This document shows, piece after piece, positions 39,474 through 53,062 of a stretch of DNA of 64,000 nucleotides (positions are counted from its first letter, which is position 1; each line of letters opens with the position of its first letter). The stretch is taken from contig JAEUSY010000004.1 in the NCBI GenBank assembly GCA_016788295.1, positions 62,001 to 126,000 of the forward strand. Direction: 5' to 3'. The notes below the pieces were generated by a model. It made no database searches. It was not told the DNA's origin and was given only the letters and a program-made list of their open reading frames with translations. The translations under genes were made by a program, and so were the position numbers. The stretch comes from Flavobacteriales bacterium (GTDB lineage Bacteria; Bacteroidota; Bacteroidia; Flavobacteriales_F; PHOS-HE28).

Positions 39474-41519
<2,046 letters not shown>

Positions 41520-41619
41520 AGCGTTGGTCACAGTTCCGTCATGTCGTTCTGTTGAGGCGGCGTAGCACAACGTGCAACCGTCATCGTTCCAGTTCACCCC
41601 GAACGTGAATGAGCATCCC

Positions 41620-44013
41620 ATGAGACCATTTCGCACGTTGCTCGCCCTACCGACGATCATGCTGGCCTGCAGCACGATCGCACAGCCCTTCACCGTTCAA
41701 CTGAGCGGAACCGTTCCCGCCTGCGCTCCCAACAGCGTGGTGGAGATCTATGTGGAATCCGGGCTGTTGCAGACCGTGGTCGCAGTGGATGACAACTGCG
41801 CCTTCAACGCCACCTTCGAGGTGTTCCTGCCCATCGGCACGCTGAGCTTCTATGGAAGTTGCAGTAACAGCGCCACGGCATACACCTTCTTCAACTTCGA
41901 GTTCGCAGCACCGGGCGATACCTTGTTCGCATCGGTCGCGCTGGTCTGCGGCAGTTCGCAGGTGGACTGCCAGGGCGTGACCGGTGGCACTGCATTTCCG
42001 GGGCATCCGTGCGACGATGGTTCTGCACAGACCGTGCTGGACCTGTGGTCAGCGGATTGCCAATGCGTGGGTCTGGACTCCAGCCAGGTCGTGTTCGATT
42101 GCCTGGGCATCCCCAACGGGCACAACCTACCGGGATCTCCGTGCCTGCTGGAAGACCTCAACAGCCCCTTCCCGGTCGGTCTCTGGAGCGCGGATTGCCA
42201 ATGCCTGCCGGACAGCATTTTCGGCAGCTACACGGATTGCCTGGGTGTGACCAATGGACCTGCTGTAGCCGGGTCACCCTGTAATGATGGCAACGCCAAC
42301 ACGCCGATCGACCTGTGGGATGCGAGCTGCCAGTGCGTTGGCTACGACTCCTCTGCTGTTGTTTTCGATTGCCTCGGAGTGGCGTTCGGCGGAGCACTGC
42401 CCGGAGCGCCATGCTTGGTCGACAGCCTGCCGTTCTTCTCCATCGGTGTTTGGGACAGCAACTGTACTTGTGTACCGGACACCACGTTCGGGACCTTTGA
42501 TTGCCTGGGTATCGCCGGTGGTGGGAACCTGCCCGGAACGCCTTGCTTCACTGGTATCAACGAACTTCCGGCCGGCTTCTGGAGCACAGCGTGTGAATGT
42601 GTGCCCGACAGCGCACAGATCCTCTACTTCGATTGCACCGGGATCCCGAACGGTCCCAACGTGGCGGGTGCGAGCTGTTCGTTCACGGCGGATGGGGTCA
42701 CCTTTGGCCCCGGCATCTGGACCGCGGACTGTGTGTGCATCGCTGACACCAGCGCCGGTCCGTTGGACTGTGCGGGCATCGCCAATGGACCGAACCAACC
42801 CGGCACCCCCTGCTTCGACATCAGCAATCCGATCGGCATCGGGTTCTGGGACCTGAACTGCACGTGCGTCATCGACACCACGAACGCACCGGTGGATTGC
42901 CTGGGCATCCCTGGTGGGCCGAACATGCCGGGCATGCCGTGCAGCCTCCTGCCCGACTCGTCGAACACGGTGGTGGGCGTTTGGGGACCGGATTGCATCT
43001 GCTACGCCAATACGTTCGACTGTCTGGGCCTACCCGGTGGAAGCAACCTGCCCGGCGCACCTTGCCAAAGCATCGCGCAGGACGGCACACCGTACGAAGG
43101 GATATGGGGCCCTGATTGTTTCTGCTACGGGGACAGCAGCACCTTCGTGCTGGATTGCTTGGGTCAGCCGAACGGTCCGAACATGCCCGGTACGATCTGC
43201 ATACCCGTGAACGAATTCCCCTTCGCACCCGTCGGCTATTGGAGCGCCGACTGCCAGTGCCTGCCGGACACCAGCCTTTTCTACACGGACTGTCTGGGCA
43301 TCGAGAACGGACCCAACACCATAGGTTCCGTATGCGATACCGGCGACCCCAATGTGCTCGGCTACTGGAACAATGCGTGCCAATGCGAAGCCTACAGCAT
43401 GCCACCGTGCACCGCAGACTTTCTCGTAGCACCGGGCATCGTGGATACGACCGGCTCCACCCCGGTGCAGCTGTGGATCTTCAATACCAGCTACGGTGGC
43501 TCGGGCAACTACAGCTACCTGTGGGATTTCGGCGATGGCAACACCTCCACCGATCCGTGGCCGCTGCACGAGTACGAGACCTTCGGGCCGTACGTGCTGT
43601 GCCTGACCATCACCGATGATGCCGGTTGCAGCAGCTCCTATTGCGACACCTTGCAAGTGGATGAGAACGGCTTCTTCGGCGGACGGAGCAACGGCTTCTC
43701 GGTGCAGGTCCGCCCGGATGAAGCGCCCACGGGCATCGACGAAGCAAGCAGGGTGGCTCCGGAGCTAAGCCTTGCTCCAAATCCCACAGTGGATGAGCTC
43801 ACCATCCGGTGCGACCTTGGCGATGCAGGCATGGCCGTGGTCAGCATCGTGGACCTGGAAGGTCGTGTAGTGCGCGAGGAGCGCTGGTCGACCAGCAGCG
43901 GGTCCAACGCCTTCACCCTTTCCACCGCGGACCTGGCCCCGGGCCTGTACGTACTGCGCTTTCAAAAGGGCAGCATAGCGGCTGCCGCGCGTTTTGCGCG
44001 TGTAGAGCGATGA
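41620..44013 (+). CDS. T9SS-sorted surface protein with eleven Cys-rich repeats and a PKD domain
   Basis: A 797-residue secreted protein. After a signal peptide (LLALPTIMLACSTIAQ) and an N-terminal beta domain (~20-110), eleven tandem repeats of ~40 residues follow (~111-600). Each starts DCLGxxxGxxxPGxPC and ends with WxxDCxC, giving four Cys per repeat. A PKD domain comes next (YLWDFGDGNTSTDPWPLHEY), and then a T9SS type A sorting domain (LSLAPNPTVDELTIRCDLG, DLEGRVVREERW, APGLYVLRFQKG). The repeats probably form disulfide-locked units on the cell surface. Two shorter paralogues follow at 44655 and 46160. No ligand is known. Confidence 0.85.
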   Translation: MRPFRTLLALPTIMLACSTIAQPFTVQLSGTVPACAPNSVVEIYVESGLLQTVVAVDDNCAFNATFEVFLPIGTLSFYGSCSNSATAYTFFNFEFAAPGDTLFASVALVCGSSQVDCQGVTGGTAFPGHPCDDGSAQTVLDLWSADCQCVGLDSSQVVFDCLGIPNGHNLPGSPCLLEDLNSPFPVGLWSADCQCLPDSIFGSYTDCLGVTNGPAVAGSPCNDGNANTPIDLWDASCQCVGYDSSAVVFDCLGVAFGGALPGAPCLVDSLPFFSIGVWDSNCTCVPDTTFGTFDCLGIAGGGNLPGTPCFTGINELPAGFWSTACECVPDSAQILYFDCTGIPNGPNVAGASCSFTADGVTFGPGIWTADCVCIADTSAGPLDCAGIANGPNQPGTPCFDISNPIGIGFWDLNCTCVIDTTNAPVDCLGIPGGPNMPGMPCSLLPDSSNTVVGVWGPDCICYANTFDCLGLPGGSNLPGAPCQSIAQDGTPYEGIWGPDCFCYGDSSTFVLDCLGQPNGPNMPGTICIPVNEFPFAPVGYWSADCQCLPDTSLFYTDCLGIENGPNTIGSVCDTGDPNVLGYWNNACQCEAYSMPPCTADFLVAPGIVDTTGSTPVQLWIFNTSYGGSGNYSYLWDFGDGNTSTDPWPLHEYETFGPYVLCLTITDDAGCSSSYCDTLQVDENGFFGGRSNGFSVQVRPDEAPTGIDEASRVAPELSLAPNPTVDELTIRCDLGDAGMAVVSIVDLEGRVVREERWSTSSGSNAFTLSTADLAPGLYVLRFQKGSIAAAARFARVER

Positions 44014-44095
44014 GCATGCCCCTGTTCAGGTACGTGCAACTTTGTATTGAGCTGGCATCGCCTTAATGAACAAGACCCTTCGGCATGATGAAAAA

Positions 44096-44289
44096 TGACG
44101 GCCTCGACAGCGACCGTCGCTTGAAGAGCATGCTGTACTGGGACGTGAACAACGGCATCGCGTGCCGCGCCTGGGCCCGCAAACCCAACGCGGTGTGGAG
44201 CATCGAGCAGGAGATAGCGCACACCACTGCTGAAGGTGACCCTGCCGAACGAGGCGGAGGATGGGTTGGTCGACGATGTGATCGGTTGA
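44096..44289 (+). pseudogene. Decayed duplicate of the 3' end of hutU
   Basis: This stretch copies the last ~195 bp of hutU (41324-41519), about nine in ten bases identical by eye, including SDRRLKSMLYWDVNNGIA and NAVWSIEQE. After that a 2-bp deletion shifts the frame, so the remaining residues differ and the stop is reached in another frame. Upstream of 44096 no hutU homology is left. It has no start context of its own. It forms a direct repeat with intact hutU around the 2.5-kb Cys-rich-repeat gene. Confidence 0.85.
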
Positions 44290-44296
44290 ACAGCAC

Positions 44297-44551
44297 ATGA
44301 GGCGAGTGATCTGTTGGGCAGCCATTTTGCTCTCGCTCCTCGCATCGGTCCTCTTTGGCCTGCTGTGGTTTGCTCGCTCGCAAATGGACTTCAACACCGA
44401 AGGCCGCTACCTTGATGAAGCGACACTTGTTGTTCATGTGGAGAGCATCAAGCTGGCATACGGTACACTGAGTCTGCTCTTCCTGGCCTTGGCGCTGGTG
44501 TTGTTCGCGTATGTGCGGTGGAATGCGAAGAGTTCGCGCCTCGGCAACTGA
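44297..44551 (+). CDS. Small two-TM membrane protein
   Basis: An 84-residue protein of unknown function with two TM segments (residues ~4-26, VICWAAILLSLLASVLFGLL; and ~54-73, LSLLFLALALVLFAYV). It begins 7 bp after the decayed hutU copy, so it may have been the original downstream neighbour of hutU before the duplication. No promoter or Shine-Dalgarno site is evident, so expression is uncertain. Confidence 0.5.
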   Translation: MRRVICWAAILLSLLASVLFGLLWFARSQMDFNTEGRYLDEATLVVHVESIKLAYGTLSLLFLALALVLFAYVRWNAKSSRLGN

Positions 44552-44654
44552 TCGTCCGAATACCTAGTGGCTGATCTTTTTTCATGCGTCACCCAACCCT
44601 GTGGACGGAAACGTCGTGTATGTGATTGAACGACCAAAAACCGACCTTCACACC

Positions 44655-46007
44655 ATGAGAACCACTCTCCGCTCCCTCACCCTTGTGCTGGCTGGGGCCT
44701 TCGGCCTGGCAGCCTTTGCGCAGCCTACACCACCCTACCCGATCCTCATCACGGGATATGTCCAGGGATGCATGCCCAACAGCCAAGTGAACATTGCGTC
44801 CATGCCAGGGGCGCAACCCACTTGGAATTACACCCTCGACCTCGTGAACTGTGGATTTGACACCGTGGCCTGGATGCAGAGCCCCGGTGGCGGATTCGTC
44901 ATCACGGTACCCTGCAATGGGGCCCTGCTCACCGCCGTGGGCCAGTACCAAGTAGATCCTTCCGGATCAGATTCGATCATGGTGGTCCTGAACTGCGGTG
45001 GTGGCGGCACACCCGATTGCCTGGGAGTGCCAGGTGGCAGCGCGCTGCCCGGCACGGCATGCACCACGGCACTTGGCCAGGCGGGTGTTTGGAGCGCCGA
45101 CTGCGAATGTTTAACGAACGCACTTGTGGATTGCGAAGGCATTCCCAATGGTCCGGCCATGCCTGGCACGCCTTGCACCAACCCGGCCACAGGACTTTCG
45201 GGCTTCTGGAGCCCTGACTGTGTTTGCCAGGCGGATACGATGGGTGGCAACTACGACTGCCTCGGTGTGCTTAACGGCAGCAACCTGCCCGGTACGCCCT
45301 GCTGGACGCCCGGCACCAACTTCATCGGCACCTGGGATGCGAACTGCAACTGCACAAACGGTGGTGGACTGCCCTGCCAGGCCGGCTTCTGGGTGATCCA
45401 GGCCTATGGCCAGGACAGCCTGCCCGTGCCCAACGAAGTATGGGTGTGGAACCTGAGCACCGGCAACGGCGCACTGACCTACCTGTGGAACTTCGGTGAT
45501 GGCACCAGCAGCACCAGCGCATTCCCAACGCACACTTACAGCCAGAACGGCCCCTATCTGCTCTGCCTCACCATTGCCGATGCCAGCGGCTGCACCAGCA
45601 CTACCTGCGACACCATCTCCATCGGCGAGAACGGCCTGCTCAATGGAATGATCCTCGGTGGCCACCAAGTGGCGAACACGGAACGCACCGATGGCTTCAC
45701 GCTGAACGTGCAGAACCCGCTGACCACCTCCATTGCCGACATGCAGGAACTGACCAACGCCGCCATCTGGCCGAACCCCAGCAATGGCGACCTCAACCTG
45801 GCCCTGGTGGCCACGGCTGACGGCCTGCTGCGCGTGAGCTTCTTCGATGTGAACGGTCGCGAAGTGCGCCAGGAGAGCCGCACGATGAACGCCGGTCGCA
45901 GCCAGCACCGTTTCGACACCAACGACCTGCCGGCAGGCATCTACACCCTGCGCGCCACCGACAGTAAAGGTCACAACATCAGCATCCGGTTCGTGAAAGC
46001 GGATTGA
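44655..46007 (+). CDS. T9SS-sorted surface protein with three Cys-rich repeats and a PKD domain
   Basis: A 450-residue paralogue of the 41620 protein. A signal peptide (SLTLVLAGAFGLAAFAQ) and a beta N-domain (~20-125, ITGYVQGCMPNSQVNIAS) are followed by three DCLGxxxGxxxPGxxC repeats (~130-255), a PKD domain (YLWNFGDGTSSTSAFPTHTY) and a T9SS type A domain (AAIWPNPSNGDLNLALVA, VNGREVRQESR, LPAGIYTLRATD). N-domain, PKD and sorting domain closely match the next gene. A terminator hairpin follows at 46030-46060. Confidence 0.85.
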   Translation: MRTTLRSLTLVLAGAFGLAAFAQPTPPYPILITGYVQGCMPNSQVNIASMPGAQPTWNYTLDLVNCGFDTVAWMQSPGGGFVITVPCNGALLTAVGQYQVDPSGSDSIMVVLNCGGGGTPDCLGVPGGSALPGTACTTALGQAGVWSADCECLTNALVDCEGIPNGPAMPGTPCTNPATGLSGFWSPDCVCQADTMGGNYDCLGVLNGSNLPGTPCWTPGTNFIGTWDANCNCTNGGGLPCQAGFWVIQAYGQDSLPVPNEVWVWNLSTGNGALTYLWNFGDGTSSTSAFPTHTYSQNGPYLLCLTIADASGCTSTTCDTISIGENGLLNGMILGGHQVANTERTDGFTLNVQNPLTTSIADMQELTNAAIWPNPSNGDLNLALVATADGLLRVSFFDVNGREVRQESRTMNAGRSQHRFDTNDLPAGIYTLRATDSKGHNISIRFVKAD

Positions 46008-46029
46008 TCCGCCGTCCGATCCTTCCAGG

Positions 46030-46060
46030 AGCGCCTCGCAGCAATGCGGGGCGCTTCTGC
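46030..46060 (+). terminator. Hairpin after the three-repeat T9SS gene
   Basis: AGCGCC and GGCGCT form a 6-bp stem, extended after a mismatch by CGC/GCG, followed by TTCTGCGTT. The T content after the stem is modest, so efficiency is uncertain. Confidence 0.5.
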
Positions 46061-46159
46061 GTTCGGGGTGGCAGGTGGATTAATTTTCGGTCGCACCCAA
46101 CCCCTCGGCGGTCGGCTCCGTGTATGAGAGTGAACGCCCAACGAACGAAACGCACTCCC

Positions 46160-47689
46160 ATGAAACACATACTGCGCTCCCTGGCCCTTTCCGCCGCCCT
46201 ATCTGGCGGTGTGGCCGCCATGGCCCAGCAACCGTACACGGTCACCATAGGTGGCCAAGTGACCGGATGCACGGGCAACTCCTTTGTGAACATTGTGACA
46301 CTGCCTGGCACCGAGCCAGCGGTGGACATTGACGTCCCCGTTCTACCTTCAAGCTGCACCTTCAGCGCCACGTTGCTTTTTGCCTACCCCACTGGTGGGT
46401 TCACCATCAGCACACCATGCCAAGGTGCCATTCAAACGGACACGGTGCTGTACGAAACGGACCCGATCATGGACTCGGCCTTGGTGTACGTGGTGTTCAA
46501 CTGCGGCGGCACCGCACCGGACTGCCTTGGCATACCCGGTGGTAGTGCCCTGCCCGGAACAGCCTGCACCACCTTCCTCGGAATTGCCGGTACTTGGAGC
46601 GCGGATTGCGAATGCATCCCGAACGCCTCCTCATGCCAGGCCTGCTTCACCGTAGAGCAGTCCACTTCCGGTGGTAACGCTATCCCGTTCACTGCTGACC
46701 TCACCAGTTGCAGCATCAGTTCGGGAGGCTCATACTTGCTCGGCTGGGAATTGCCCAACGGCGGTGCGGCCACAGGAGAAAGCACCACCTTCACATTCCC
46801 CGGCAGTGGCTTCTATAATGTTTGCCTATGGATGGCAGGTACGGATAACAACTGCGTGAGCACGATGTGCGATTCCGTATTCGTTGACACCGACGGTACA
46901 GTATCCATGGGTTCGACCGTGAACTGGGATTGCCTCGGCATACCCAATGGACCCGATCTGCCAGGAACGCCATGCACCCATCCGACCCTTGGTGCAGGCA
47001 CATGGGATGCCAACTGTTTCTGTGATCCTGACAGTACGACCATCACCTGCCAGGCCGGCTTCTGGGTGATGCAGGCCTACACGTACACCGATACCATCAA
47101 CAACCCCGGCGGTGGTGTGGAACCCATCCCCAACGAAGTGTGGGTGTGGAACCTGAGCAGCGGTGGCGATGGCAACTACCAGTTCCTGTGGAACTTCGGT
47201 GATGGCACCACAAGCACCGATCCTTACCCCACACACGTGTACGCAACGGGAGGCCCCTACCAGCTGTGCCTCACCATGGTGGACGGCACGGGCTGCACCT
47301 CCACCTTCTGCGACACGGTATCCATTGATGAGAACGGTCTTTACGACGGCATGCGACCCGGTAACGGTGAAGTACGCTCGGGCTTTACGCTCAATGTGAT
47401 CGCCCAACTGCCCACGGCTGTTCCCGCGCATGAGCAACTGAACGACATCGCACTGTGGCCCAACCCTGTGGAGGACATGATCGGCCTTTCGCTGAACAGC
47501 GCGATGAACAGCAACCTCACCATGGACATCATCGACCTGAACGGCCGTGTGGTGCGCAGCACGAACGAGGCCGTGGCCGGTGGCCGCAACCGCTTCGAGG
47601 TGAACGTGAGCGACCTGAACGCAGGCCTTTACATGATCCGCTTGACCAACGGCCAACAGACCACCACCCGCCGTTTCGTGAAGCGCTGA
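46160..47689 (+). CDS. T9SS-sorted surface protein with two Cys-rich repeats and PKD-like domains
   Basis: A 509-residue paralogue of the two preceding repeat proteins. A signal peptide (SLALSAALSGGVAAMAQ) and the beta N-domain (GGQVTGCTGNSFVNIVTLPG) are followed by one Cys-rich repeat (DCLGIPGGSALPGTACTT), a PKD-like domain (~165-255, CQACFTVEQSTSGG to VSTMCDSVFVDT), a second repeat (DCLGIPNGPDLPGTPCTH), a second PKD domain (FLWNFGDGTTSTDPYPTHVY) and a T9SS type A domain (IALWPNPVEDMIGLSLNS, LNGRVVRSTN, LNAGLYMIRLTN). Its ~70-bp leader resembles that of the 44655 gene, so the two arose by tandem duplication including upstream DNA. The sigma factor gene follows. Confidence 0.85.
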   Translation: MKHILRSLALSAALSGGVAAMAQQPYTVTIGGQVTGCTGNSFVNIVTLPGTEPAVDIDVPVLPSSCTFSATLLFAYPTGGFTISTPCQGAIQTDTVLYETDPIMDSALVYVVFNCGGTAPDCLGIPGGSALPGTACTTFLGIAGTWSADCECIPNASSCQACFTVEQSTSGGNAIPFTADLTSCSISSGGSYLLGWELPNGGAATGESTTFTFPGSGFYNVCLWMAGTDNNCVSTMCDSVFVDTDGTVSMGSTVNWDCLGIPNGPDLPGTPCTHPTLGAGTWDANCFCDPDSTTITCQAGFWVMQAYTYTDTINNPGGGVEPIPNEVWVWNLSSGGDGNYQFLWNFGDGTTSTDPYPTHVYATGGPYQLCLTMVDGTGCTSTFCDTVSIDENGLYDGMRPGNGEVRSGFTLNVIAQLPTAVPAHEQLNDIALWPNPVEDMIGLSLNSAMNSNLTMDIIDLNGRVVRSTNEAVAGGRNRFEVNVSDLNAGLYMIRLTNGQQTTTRRFVKR

Positions 47690-47706
47690 ACCGAACGCTG
47701 ATGAAC

Positions 47707-47743
47707 GCCGAAGGGCCTTCGTTCTGATGGAAGGCCCTTCGGC
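47707..47743 (+). other. Perfect 14-bp hairpin just upstream of the ECF sigma gene
   Basis: GCCGAAGGGCCTTC at 47707-47720 pairs perfectly with GAAGGCCCTTCGGC at 47730-47743 across a nine-base loop. No T-tract follows on either strand, so it is not a classical terminator, but it could block readthrough from the T9SS gene. It ends nine bases before the sigma factor ATG, leaving almost no room for a separate promoter; a CCCTTCG -7-like box lies inside its right arm. Confidence 0.7.
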
Positions 47744-47752
47744 ACATCGCCG

Positions 47753-48316
47753 ATGATACCAGAGACCCTCATAGCACGCTGCATCCGCGAGGAGCCCAAG
47801 GCACAGTACGAACTGTACCGGGCGCTGTATGGCCAGATGATGGCCATTTGCTGCCGCTATGAACGCAACAAACAGGACGCCGTGGCCCGCATGAACCAAG
47901 GCTTTCTGAAGATCCTGACCAACCTGGGCAAACGACGGCCCGACGTGCCCTTTGAACTGTGGACCCGACGCATCATGATCAACACGGTGATCGACGAATA
48001 CCGCAAGGACCGCCAGCGAAAGGCCAGCGAAAGCCTGGACGCCTCGTTGGATGAGTCCACGTTGGTGGAAGTGAACGACTACCTGCGCCACATGGAATCC
48101 GACGCCTTCGCAGAGCTGCTGCAACGCGTGCCGGACATGTCGCGCAAGGTCTTCAACCTCTTCGCCATCGATGGCTTCGGCCACCAGGAGATCGCACAGA
48201 TGCTGGGCATCAGCGAAGGCACCTCGAAATGGCATGTGGCCAACGCGCGCCAAACGCTTCAACAGGCCATTGCACAGCTGGCCGGACAGACCACCGCAAA
48301 GACCGCCATCCGATGA
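47753..48316 (+). CDS. ECF-type RNA polymerase sigma factor
   Basis: A 187-residue sigma factor. Region 2 (residues ~20-85) includes ELYRALYGQMMAICCRYERN and FELWTRRIMINTVIDEYRKD; region 4 (~120-175) holds the helix-turn-helix AIDGFGHQEIAQMLGISEGT. No N- or C-terminal extension is present. The stop codon overlaps the start of the next gene in ATGA, so the anti-sigma partner is translationally coupled. It likely directs a small regulon; the T9SS genes upstream are candidates, but no recognition site was identified. Confidence 0.93.
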   Translation: MIPETLIARCIREEPKAQYELYRALYGQMMAICCRYERNKQDAVARMNQGFLKILTNLGKRRPDVPFELWTRRIMINTVIDEYRKDRQRKASESLDASLDESTLVEVNDYLRHMESDAFAELLQRVPDMSRKVFNLFAIDGFGHQEIAQMLGISEGTSKWHVANARQTLQQAIAQLAGQTTAKTAIR

Positions 48317-49998
48317 ACCACGACAACGAATTCGACGAGCTGGCCCGGCGCAAGCTGAGCGAACAGGCGTTCCCTTTTGAGGAGGCGCACTGGGAGCTGG
48401 CCGAGCAGGCGATCGCCGCACAACGCGGCCGTAAACGCGGCGGCTTCTGGCTGCTGGGCGCCGCCGCACTGCTGTTGGTGAGCACCGCCGCTTGGTGGAC
48501 GCTTCGCGAAACAGAGCTCAAAGCGGAGCCGCTGGCTGCTGCGACCACCGAACAGAACACGGACAAGGCAACAACAGCGCCCCACACATCGGAGAAGATC
48601 ACCGAGACCGCACCGTCCTCTTTTTCGTTATCGGAAATTCCTTCGGAAAACACGGCAGCGAACACGAACACCACGTCCTCCACTTCGACTGACGTCAATA
48701 GTTCGAGTACATCTACCACTGCGTCTTCGGCTTCCACAGTGAAGAGCACATCCACAGCACAGGTATCATCTACGAAGACCACGACCGCGGCTACCGGCAA
48801 GGCCAGCTTAAGTATGCCGCGAACGGAACGTACTGCAACGCCCAAGAACTCGGGCAATGCACCCACGGCGAACGCAGCCAGCAACGCCACTGCGACCACC
48901 AGTTCAACCGGAACAACACTGGGCACAAGCATTCCGCAAGCCGAAGGGAACGGAGCGAGCACATTGCCCGCAACCACCGCTTCCACAGGCGCTTCGCTCA
49001 GCGCAGGTACAACCCCGGTCCAAGACCCCTTGGCATCACCCGAAGCCAATGCTTCGGAGGCGAACGTGGCACCTTCCGCAGTGAGCAGCAATGCTCAAGC
49101 AGTGGACGCTGACACGCCGGACCACACGGAACTGATCACGATCCTCACTTCAGTATCAACGACAGTTCCAGCAGACAGCGCCAACTCAGCACCAGCCGTA
49201 GCTGCACCGCTCGTGGCGCCGATCATTCCGGACCGTGCCCCCTGGGAGATCAGCATGCTGGGTGGTGCGTTCTCATCCACCGGCAATTACAGCGGAGGCA
49301 ACAGCGACAGTTGGTCCAACGGCATCACGCCGGAAACCACCATGGGGTATGGTGCCGAGCTGATGCACATGGGCCGCAACATCGGCCTCGGCTTCGGTGT
49401 GCACTATGGCACCTATGCCGAACGGATCAAGGTGGATGCCATCGACAACACCACGGTGGAACGCTGGAACTACTGGTACCTCGCTCCGGTCGACACCACC
49501 ATCCTCTTCATCACGGACACCATCATTCAGAACGGACAGGTCTATTACGTGGGCCAATCCATCAACACCACGGTGAACGTGATCACACTGGGCAGCGACA
49601 GCACCGTCACGACGATGCGTGTGCGCGATGCGCGCGAGCTACGCGTTACCACCAGCTACTTCGAGATCCCGATGTTGTTCGATGCGCACGTGGTGCAAGG
49701 CCGCTGGAGCCTGGGCCTGCGCGGTGGTCCCACGGTGGGTCTGCTCAGTGGCCGTACCGGAGCGCTACCCAACAGCACCAACGATGGCTACACCGAGCTG
49801 GGTGATCAGGCCTTCCGCGAGGTGGTCTTCGGCTACACGGCGCGCGCCTACATCCGCTACCGCTGGAACGCCGCTTGGTCCGTGGGCATTGAACCGGCCC
49901 TTCGTGGCCAGTTCAGCAACAGCCTGAGCGATGGCGACGTGCAGCGCCACAGCCGCGCTTTCGGGGGCATGATCAGCCTCTCGTACCGCCTGCGTTGA
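48313..49998 (+). CDS. Predicted dual-membrane-spanning anti-sigma factor (cytoplasmic tail, TM, linker, OM barrel)
   Basis: A 561-residue protein with four parts. Residues 1-43 are a charged cytoplasmic segment (FDELARRKLSEQAFPFEEAH, WELAEQAI) of the type found in anti-sigma proteins paired with Bacteroidota ECF sigma factors. Residues ~44-62 are a single TM helix (GFWLLGAAALLLVSTAAWW). Residues ~63-306 are a low-complexity Ser/Thr/Ala/Asn-rich linker, long enough to cross the periplasm. Residues ~307-561 look like an eight-stranded outer-membrane barrel (WEISMLGGAFSSTGNYSG to FGGMISLSYRLR). This plan matches the dual membrane-spanning anti-sigma factors described in Bacteroides. The 4-bp overlap with the sigma gene supports the pairing. 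Confidence 0.8.
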   Translation: MNHDNEFDELARRKLSEQAFPFEEAHWELAEQAIAAQRGRKRGGFWLLGAAALLLVSTAAWWTLRETELKAEPLAAATTEQNTDKATTAPHTSEKITETAPSSFSLSEIPSENTAANTNTTSSTSTDVNSSSTSTTASSASTVKSTSTAQVSSTKTTTAATGKASLSMPRTERTATPKNSGNAPTANAASNATATTSSTGTTLGTSIPQAEGNGASTLPATTASTGASLSAGTTPVQDPLASPEANASEANVAPSAVSSNAQAVDADTPDHTELITILTSVSTTVPADSANSAPAVAAPLVAPIIPDRAPWEISMLGGAFSSTGNYSGGNSDSWSNGITPETTMGYGAELMHMGRNIGLGFGVHYGTYAERIKVDAIDNTTVERWNYWYLAPVDTTILFITDTIIQNGQVYYVGQSINTTVNVITLGSDSTVTTMRVRDARELRVTTSYFEIPMLFDAHVVQGRWSLGLRGGPTVGLLSGRTGALPNSTNDGYTELGDQAFREVVFGYTARAYIRYRWNAAWSVGIEPALRGQFSNSLSDGDVQRHSRAFGGMISLSYRLR

Positions 49999-50020
49999 TC
50001 GCGTTGCCGATCTTCGGGGC

Positions 50021-50626
50021 ATGAAGCGTTTCGCGCCCTTGCTCCTGCTGGCCATGGTGGGCTGTGCCGATGCGCCAACACCTGAAGCCACAACGATGTC
50101 CAATTTGGAAGAACTGAACGCATCGCCTCGCGCGGGCATCCTCCGTGCCGTGATCGAGATACCTGCGGGCACAGTGGAAAAGCGTCAGTACGATCCGGCC
50201 ACGAACACCTTCCCCATCGACCTGCGCAACGGCCAGCCCCGCCTGATCCGTTTCCTGCCCTACCCGGCCAACTACGGCTTCATCCCGGGCACCAAGATGA
50301 ACAAGGAGGAAGGCGGCGATGGCGATGCGGTGGACGTGTTCGTGCTGTGCGGGGCCGTGCCCAGCGGCACCGTGCTGGAGGTGGAACCCATCGGCATCAT
50401 CGAACTGCTCGATGCCGGTGAACGCGACGACAAATTGGTGGCCCTGCCCATCGATCCGGCATTGCGCACCGTGGAGGCCGGTGATATCCATGAACTGCCG
50501 CAGGCCGCACGCGACATCCTGGTGACCTGGCTGCTCAACTACGACCCCGAGGACGGTGCCGAGCTGGTCGCCGTGAAAGGCAAGGCCGATGCGCTCGCCA
50601 CGGTGGAGCGCTGGCGCACGAAGTGA
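50021..50626 (+). CDS. ppa: Lipoprotein inorganic pyrophosphatase (family I)
   Basis: A 201-residue pyrophosphatase. The family I core is complete: PANYGFIPGTKMNKEEGGDGD and DAVDVFVLCG provide the metal-binding Asp residues. Unusually it starts with a lipoprotein signal peptide (FAPLLLLAMVGCADA, Cys15), so it should be an envelope lipoprotein; such forms are known in Bacteroidota. If exported it cannot pull biosynthetic reactions in the cytoplasm. An internal ATG at 50097 (MSNLEELNASPRAGIL) could give a cytoplasmic form. It abuts the convergent pheT gene. Confidence 0.9.
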   Translation: MKRFAPLLLLAMVGCADAPTPEATTMSNLEELNASPRAGILRAVIEIPAGTVEKRQYDPATNTFPIDLRNGQPRLIRFLPYPANYGFIPGTKMNKEEGGDGDAVDVFVLCGAVPSGTVLEVEPIGIIELLDAGERDDKLVALPIDPALRTVEAGDIHELPQAARDILVTWLLNYDPEDGAELVAVKGKADALATVERWRTK

Positions 50627-53062
50627 TCATCTGCGCAGTTCCGCGCCCAGCTCCTTCTCGAAAGCCTGGCGGATGCGGCCCATGGCCTTGTCCACCTGCT
50701 CATCGGTCAGCGTCCTCTCGGCATCCTGCAGCGTGAAGCTGAGCGCGTAGCTCTTCTTGCCCGCCGGCAGTTTGTCGCCCTGGTACACATCGAAGAGGCC
50801 CACCTCGCGCAGCAGCTTGCGCTCCGCGTTGAAGGCCAGCTTGCGCAACTGCTCGAAGCGCACGCCCTGCTCCAGCAACAGGCTGAGGTCGCGGCGTACG
50901 CTCGGGAATCGCGGCACCTCGGTGAAGCCCACGGCCTGTGCGTGGCAGGCATCCAGCAGGGCCTGTTCATCCAGTTCAGCGAACACCACGGGCTGGTTCA
51001 CATCCGCGGCCTTCAGCGCCGGCTTGCGTACCGCGCCGATCAGGCCCACCGGACGGCCCTTGAGCAGCACGGTGCACGCCTTCTCCAGCAGGGCATGGCC
51101 CAGCGGCTCCCAATGCACCAGCTCGGCGAGGCCGAGGCGTTCCAACAGCACCTCCAGCTCCTCCTTCAGGTCGTAGAGATCGCTCTTGGCATCGTCGCTG
51201 CGCCAGCTCTCGCGCTCGCGCCGCCCGGTGATGACCAGGCCCAATGTCTCGCGCTCCACGATGCGGTCGCCGTCCTTGGTGTAGGTGCGGCCCCGCTCGA
51301 AGAAGCGGAGGTCGCGCTGCTGGCGGTTCAGGTTGTAGGCCAGTGCACCGAGCAGGCCCGGCAGCATGGTGGGACGCAGCACGTCCAGCTCGGCGCTGAG
51401 CGCATTGGCCAGCGTTACCAGCTGCTCCGCGGAGTGGCTGCCACCCTTCACCACGCGCTCGCCGCTCACCAGCGAGGGCGTCATTACCTCGCGCAGTCCG
51501 CGGGCGGCGAGGTGGTGGCCCACTTGGGCACGCAGCGATTCCAACGTAAGCGCCTCATGCAGCACTGGTGGTAGCTGCAAGTGCTTCGGCAATGGCACGT
51601 GGTCGTAGCCGTGGATGCGCAGCACCTCCTCCACCACATCGGCCGGGCGATGCACGTCCACGCGGTAGGCGGGCACCTGCACATGCAGGCCCTGTGCATT
51701 GCGCTCGCGGATGCGGAAGTCGAGCAGCTCCAGGATGTGCACCACCTGATCGGCGGGAATGTGCAGACCGGCGAGGCGTTCGAGGTCGGCGAACTTGAGG
51801 TGTACCTCCGAACGGTGCTTCGCCGTGTGGTCGATGTCGGTGATGGACGAGCTGATGCGCGCACCGGCCACCTCCTTCAGCAGCAGGGCCGCGCGCTTCA
51901 GCGCATACACGGTGATCTCGGGGTCCACGCCGCGCTCGAAGCGGAACGAGGCATCGGTGTTCAGTGCGTGGCGGCGGGCGGTGCGGCGGATGGTGGAGGC
52001 CTCGAAGCAGGCGCTCTCCAGGAACACCGTGGTGGTGGCATCGGACACGCCACTACGCAGGCCACCGAACACGCCCGCGATGCAGGCCGGCTTCGTGGCA
52101 TCGGCGATCACCAGGTCATCGGCATCCAAGGTGCGCTCCTTCTCATCGAGGGTGAGGAAGGGCTCGCCCGCGGCCGCCTTGCGCACCACGATGCGGCCGC
52201 CTTCCAACTGGTCGGCATCGAAGGCGTGGAGGGGCTGGCCCAGCTCGTGCTGCACGTAGTTGGTCACGTCCACCACGTTGTTGATGGGCTTCAGGCCGAT
52301 GGCCAGGAGGCGGTCCTGCAGCCACTTGGGCGAGGGGCCCACGCGGATGCCGGTGAGCATAAGGCCCGCATAGCGCGGACAGGCCTTGGCGTCATGCACC
52401 TCCACGGGCACGGTGCGCGCCTCGTCGTCCTGCGCAAAGGCCGACACATCGGGCAGCTTCAGTTCCAACGTGGCGCCGGTGCGGTGGTTCTGGGCGGCGA
52501 TGAGGTCGCGCGCCACGCCCAAATGGCCCAGGGCATCGGTGCGGTTGGGCGTGAGGCCGATCTCCAGCACATGGTCGCTGTGCAGGCCCAGGTGCTGCGC
52601 GGCGGGCGTGCCCACCACGGCGGTGGGGTCCAGCACCAGGATGCCGTCATGGCTCTGGCCCAGGCCCAGTTCGTCCTCGGCGCAGATCATACCATGGCTC
52701 TCCTGCCCGCGGATCTTGCTCTTCTTGATGATGATGCAGGTGCCGTCGGTCATGCACAGGTTGGCGCCCACGGTGGCCACCAGCACCTTCTGCCCGGCCG
52801 CCACGTTGGGGGCGCCGCACACGATCTGCACGGGCTCGCCGCTTCCCAGGTCCACCAGTGTCACACTGAGGCGATCGGCATCGGGGTGCTTGCGGCACTC
52901 CAGCACCTGGCCCACCACCACACCGGCCAGCATGCCCTTGATGGGCTCGTGCAGCTCCACGCTCTCGCACTCCAGCCCGGTGCTGGTGAGGATGGCCGCC
53001 GCCTGCTGGGGCGTGAGGCCGGGTTCAACGTATTGCGTGAGCCAGTTCCAGGAGATGCGCAT
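50627..53062 (-). CDS. pheT: Phenylalanyl-tRNA synthetase beta subunit
   Basis: An 811-residue PheRS beta chain that, with PheS, charges tRNA-Phe. The N-terminal tRNA-binding OB domain (residues ~40-155, GVVVGQVLECRKHPDADRLS), the B3/B4 editing domain (~210-390), B5 (~405-475), the inactive synthetase core (~480-700) and the ferredoxin-fold anticodon domain (~715-811, FPSVRRDLSLLL) are all present in order. pheS is not in the window. The start MRISWNWLTQYV is the family start. A TATCTTCG box at 53117-53124 on this strand is a likely -7 element. Confidence 0.97.
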   Translation of the reverse strand: MRISWNWLTQYVEPGLTPQQAAAILTSTGLECESVELHEPIKGMLAGVVVGQVLECRKHPDADRLSVTLVDLGSGEPVQIVCGAPNVAAGQKVLVATVGANLCMTDGTCIIIKKSKIRGQESHGMICAEDELGLGQSHDGILVLDPTAVVGTPAAQHLGLHSDHVLEIGLTPNRTDALGHLGVARDLIAAQNHRTGATLELKLPDVSAFAQDDEARTVPVEVHDAKACPRYAGLMLTGIRVGPSPKWLQDRLLAIGLKPINNVVDVTNYVQHELGQPLHAFDADQLEGGRIVVRKAAAGEPFLTLDEKERTLDADDLVIADATKPACIAGVFGGLRSGVSDATTTVFLESACFEASTIRRTARRHALNTDASFRFERGVDPEITVYALKRAALLLKEVAGARISSSITDIDHTAKHRSEVHLKFADLERLAGLHIPADQVVHILELLDFRIRERNAQGLHVQVPAYRVDVHRPADVVEEVLRIHGYDHVPLPKHLQLPPVLHEALTLESLRAQVGHHLAARGLREVMTPSLVSGERVVKGGSHSAEQLVTLANALSAELDVLRPTMLPGLLGALAYNLNRQQRDLRFFERGRTYTKDGDRIVERETLGLVITGRRERESWRSDDAKSDLYDLKEELEVLLERLGLAELVHWEPLGHALLEKACTVLLKGRPVGLIGAVRKPALKAADVNQPVVFAELDEQALLDACHAQAVGFTEVPRFPSVRRDLSLLLEQGVRFEQLRKLAFNAERKLLREVGLFDVYQGDKLPAGKKSYALSFTLQDAERTLTDEQVDKAMGRIRQAFEKELGAELRR

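Follow-up and report, generated by a model that had tools for sequence, protein, structure and literature searches.

In the FecI/FecR systems, the state of the outer membrane is relayed to an ECF sigma factor by an anti-sigma factor with one transmembrane (TM) helix, and a separate TonB-dependent receptor is required. Dma1-3 of Bacteroides thetaiotaomicron form, together with the Das sigma factors, a published family in which one chain has an N-terminal sigma-binding domain, a TM helix, a long disordered tether and a C-terminal β-barrel, and adjoins an ECF sigma gene; Dma1 and Dma2 control vesiculation, and Dma2 controls PULs as well (PMC13088901). Two other systems connect an ECF sigma factor with the type IX secretion system (T9SS). 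The SM6 promoters of Flavobacterium psychrophilum, whose CGT -10 box has been attributed to an ECF sigma factor, include T9SS genes and one ECF/anti-sigma pair among their targets (PMC9723704). They resemble the promoters described below in the -10 box, and differ in that their targets are T9SS machinery (GldN, PorU). In the PorA-PorXY-SigP system of Porphyromonas gingivalis, T9SS control likewise links an ECF sigma factor to a T9SS protein at the surface, but through a two-component system, without a single-chain anti-sigma factor, and it is the machinery that is regulated (PMC7712824).

The locus studied here lies in a 64,000-nt stretch of Flavobacteriales DNA (hereafter the window). On its forward strand, the ORF at 47753-48316 (187 aa) matches Pfam Sigma70_r2 and Sigma70_r4 as well as the general NCBIfam sigma70-ECF model; it stayed under the cut-off of TIGR02985 (60.5 versus 126.4 bits) and of the other specific NCBIfam models shown. 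Its end and the start of the following 561-codon ORF (48313-49998, forward strand) share the sequence ATGA. The 4-bp overlap that a previous sequence-only reading of the window had reported is therefore genuine, and it is conserved across the genus: it was exact in 21 of 21 same-genus loci of one set and in 28 of 28 genus-level loci of another (those with a downstream chain called). An orthologue was present in 20 of the 22 other same-genus genomes covered by the first protein search.

The sequence-only reading had seen in the 561-residue protein a single chain made of a cytoplasmic tail, one TM helix, a linker of ~240 residues and an outer-membrane barrel, similar to the dual membrane-spanning anti-sigma factors of Bacteroides. 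AlphaFold2, run on a 26-sequence orthologue alignment, together with Pfam and composition, recovered every one of these features. Residues 1-42 (48313-48438) are predicted to form a cytoplasmic helix-loop-helix (helices 6-17 and 24-39) with an invariant Trp27; conservation and profile comparison make it the presumed sigma-binding module. The inner-membrane TM helix spans residues 43-65 (48439-48507) in the model, a hydrophobic segment is found at this position in nearly all orthologues, and the RGRKRGG sequence ahead of it is consistent with a cytoplasmic N-terminus. The periplasmic linker (residues 66-305; 48508-49227) consists for 55% of Ser, Thr and Ala and is predicted to be disordered, residues 68-302 being almost entirely at pLDDT <50. 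The barrel (residues 306-561; 49228-49995) has 10 long strands within 311-560 (block means mostly 87-96, barrel pLDDT about 92), matches Pfam OMP_b-brl_2 (E=5.6e-8) and structurally resembles OmpA, OmpW and OprF (Foldseek; VIA alignment Z about 15-17). OMP_b-brl_2 was the sole Pfam match in the chain. No FecR domain was found. What the pair shares with FecI/FecR is a one-TM anti-sigma factor between the outer membrane and an ECF sigma factor. Because the plan is that of the published Dma proteins (PMC13088901), we class the 561-residue protein as a Dma-type chain, an assignment made by architecture and sigma adjacency; on these two grounds the resemblance noted earlier is borne out. Immediately after it, 22 bp past the anti-sigma gene, comes an inorganic pyrophosphatase gene (50021-50626) with a lipoprotein-type signal (LLLLAMVGC); other members of the genus often have it in this position too.

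Homologous pairs are found well beyond the genus. A profile of the sigma factor identified more than 500 relatives in GTDB genomes, and 80 of their loci were fetched from Flavobacteriales, Saprospiraceae, Sphingobacteriaceae, Chitinophagaceae and others, i.e. from several Bacteroidota orders. In nearly all 80, sigma was followed by a chain built on this plan, sharing the N-terminal motif and the TM helix (410-616 residues for the complete ones), and 50 of 72 of the relatives' chains matched OMP_b-brl_2. In these Bacteroidota loci, ECF sigma factors of the window type thus occur together with Dma-type chains.

The genome to which the window belongs (G000, 3.8 Mb) contains two further related ECF sigma genes, each with a downstream inhibitor chain (L107 2048-3091 and L108 2069-3340, contigs C53 and C35; orthologues L148-L170 and L173-L193). 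These paralogous chains share the N-terminal module with the window family (HHalign probability 94-96%, against less than 2% for column-shuffled controls), and one of them has it doubled in tandem. After the module come a TM helix, a linker, PKD domains in one case, and a C-terminal CHU_C, the T9SS type-B sorting domain, which Pfam detected in 21 of 21 and 20 of 20 orthologues scanned. These paralogues would be anti-sigma factors that are themselves tagged for T9SS export (41/41 orthologues scanned); no paper on anti-sigma factors of this kind turned up in our literature search.

When a homologous sigma-inhibitor pair whose two genes lie in one frame (L094) was modelled as a fusion, with the stop codon read as Ser, AlphaFold gave a pTM of 0.40 on 41 rows, of which only 6 covered the inhibitor, and the N-terminal inhibitor helices came out without clear confidence; sigma binding is thus not predicted. 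This modelling result is one of two points in favour of a quite different explanation, which we regard as very unlikely: the 561-residue protein would be an outer-membrane protein anchored by its N-terminus, without any inhibition of sigma, and the promoter element presented below would belong to another sigma factor or regulator. Against it stands the module itself, which is common to chains located beside related sigma factors but otherwise unrelated in their C-termini. In the reading that we prefer, the N-terminus would bind sigma and the chain would inhibit it.

The third part of the sequence-only reading was the proximity to three large T9SS surface proteins, and each of the three does carry a Por_Secre_tail and PKD domains. 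The most distant is encoded at 41572-44013; the two others, hereafter c3 (44655-46007, forward strand) and c2 (46160-47689, forward strand), are Cys-rich. For both, the listed starts (44601 and 46004) are too far upstream, the likely ones being ATG 44655 and ATG 46160. Cys motifs on the pattern DCLGIPGGSALPGTACTT...GTWSADCEC recur in the T9SS proteins of 44655-47689. A c2 homologue, i.e. a T9SS PKD/Cys-rich gene, lies directly 5' of sigma in 29 of 29 genus-level loci, mostly about 62 bp away. Adjacency by itself is weak evidence, since proteins ending in a T9SS sorting domain number at least 150 in this genome. Nor is gene order within the genus independent evidence, because synteny there spans a wider region, from urocanase to PheT, with the pyrophosphatase included. 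We therefore set aside T9SS adjacency alone as an argument. Outside the genus, that synteny is gone and a T9SS-tail gene is found directly 5' of sigma in 11 of 51 loci, versus 21 of 663 for other genes there (binomial p 5e-7, phylogeny being ignored). Placed on the sigma tree, the upstream-T9SS label requires at least six changes, which means that the association has either arisen more than once or been lost several times.

Stronger evidence for a link with T9SS comes from the leaders of c3 and c2. Both carry the sequence ACCCAACC-N16-CGTGTATG, an ECF-type promoter element situated about 33 nt 5' of the likely start codons (44591-44622 for c3, without mismatch, and 46095-46126 for c2 and the sigma operon, both on the forward strand). 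The pattern was first spotted by eye in these two leaders, then tested elsewhere. The c2 promoter is kept in the genus, at the same place and with the same spacer, in nearly all loci whose contig extends that far. In the whole genome of origin there are two exact sites, those of c3 and c2; no promoter of this type precedes the gene of the remaining T9SS neighbour (41572-44013). With up to one mismatch, the element was found in 40 of 45 genus genomes, at 74 sites and mostly 1-3 per genome, as compared to 3 sites for the reversed pattern. Most of the examined sites precede genes for exported proteins, largely T9SS cargo. The third-best site of the genome of origin (1 mismatch; L240, C53:98500-103500) is 68 nt 5' of a lipoprotein gene; G009 has a nearly identical site that matches exactly, and similar lipoprotein targets exist in G016 (L241) and G333 (L243).

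Presence of the element goes with presence of the sigma gene: it was missing from three of the five genus genomes without sigma versus two of the 40 with sigma (Fisher p=0.0065), and in both of the latter the sigma gene is near a contig end. The two other genomes without sigma retain motif sites, and this persistence is the second point in favour of another regulator. One of them is G016 (L239, C5:44000-53000), where c2, sigma and dma are gone, apparently deleted, and where the c2-type promoter now precedes the pyrophosphatase gene.

The gap that separates c2 from the start codon of sigma holds a GC-rich hairpin (47707-47743, forward strand) with a 14-bp stem and no T-run. Its position is constant across 27 genus-level loci, and it is supported by covariation, 11 of its 12 consensus pairs showing changes on both sides. 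In the window, the main stem ends 9 nt 5' of the sigma start codon, which leaves little space for a separate promoter. The sigma-70 promoter and terminator scan of the region gave nothing above shuffles, and Rfam had no family match at 41000-51000. The hairpin may lower the expression of sigma and dma relative to c2.

For the other families, the core AACY-N16-CGTR was used; it was shortened after a first look at AAC/CGT matches in those loci, and the weight consequently rests on shuffles and on strand and position controls, not on the choice of pattern. Of the 39 loci where no T9SS gene lies upstream, 33 have the core immediately ahead of sigma (mean of 0.3 for the shuffles, 0 of 39 on the reverse strand). 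Where there is one, the core precedes that gene in 8 of 11 loci and sigma in 1 of 11. A spacer of 16 was found in 41 loci, the next best in 6, and the flanks outside the search pattern match the genus -35 (ACCC). In L063, L087, L091 and L101, a second copy is located before a T9SS gene 3.1-3.3 kb 3' of the sigma start; sites before T9SS genes thus recur where gene order differs. A more stringent version of the element has 0-3 sites in each of ten outgroup genomes (2.3-9.5 Mb). The promoter of the paralogous sigma (set B) is related but different, AACC-N15-CGTC.

This displacement of the promoter to the upstream T9SS gene, when one is present, suggests that the neighbours are probable targets and not just context. 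The connection with T9SS drawn by the sequence-only reading is real, but falls short in one respect: judging by their promoters, two of the three neighbours are probably targets of sigma, beyond mere context. The overall pattern is what would be predicted for an autoregulated ECF sigma factor with a narrow regulon, and we infer that this sigma factor reads the ACCCAACC-N16-CGTGTATG promoter. Assigning the element to another regulator fits poorly with its being the sigma operon's own promoter across families; besides, AACC and CGT boxes at such a distance are typical of ECF sigma factors.

We consider it likely that the ECF sigma factor and its Dma-type single-chain inhibitor constitute a switch, itself autoregulated, that controls surface proteins exported by the T9SS. 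Sequence, structure prediction and comparison back the architecture of the chain, the coupling of the two genes and the promoter element with its position and narrow distribution. The N-terminal helix-loop-helix of ~40 residues (residues 1-42) would sequester sigma at the inner membrane, the TM helix and the disordered linker tethering this module to the 10-strand outer-membrane barrel. The barrel end would sense a change at the outer membrane or at the surface, and sigma would be released. Freed sigma would then direct RNA polymerase to the ACCCAACC-N16-CGTGTA promoters of T9SS surface-protein genes and of its own operon, in the order promoter, c2, hairpin, sigma and anti-sigma. The pair may monitor secretion or the state of the outer membrane, as had been suggested.

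Dma-type inhibition could also serve another purpose. The regulon could be one of general envelope stress or vesiculation, the T9SS genes being in the operon by history only. The Bacteroides precedents, where Dma1 and Dma2 act on vesiculation and Dma2 on PULs (PMC13088901), lend this some credit, and so does the location of some promoter sites before lipoprotein genes. We find it improbable, although less so than a role for another regulator, since the examined sites are mostly before genes for exported proteins with T9SS cargo in large part, since most genomes have just 1-3 strong sites, and since the T9SS-gene sites recur in spite of differing gene order.

With the switch for T9SS cargo as the preferred reading, the kind of protein is already known and the regulon is the new addition. 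As compared to the published Dma family (PMC13088901), the pairs described here belong to T9SS-bearing Flavobacteriales and relatives, a T9SS surface-protein gene often comes first in their operon, and their predicted regulon is T9SS cargo instead of nigD1, PULs or vesiculation. The promoter element connects the system with type IX secretion beyond Bacteroides, and such a regulon would explain why these pairs recur beside T9SS surface-protein genes. Being simple, conserved across orders and limited to one or a few strong sites in each genome, the element defines a regulon that can be tested. A broader view, which we put forward tentatively and would not yet bet on, is that of a single Bacteroidota family of anti-sigma factors, in which the sigma-binding module is tied to the surface either by a barrel or by a T9SS type-B signal; with the barrel type acting on T9SS cargo, its members may form feedback circuits that read the status of the outer membrane or of T9SS export directly into RNA polymerase. 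Anti-sigma chains with such a sorting signal at their C-terminus would wire secretion to transcription in a new way.
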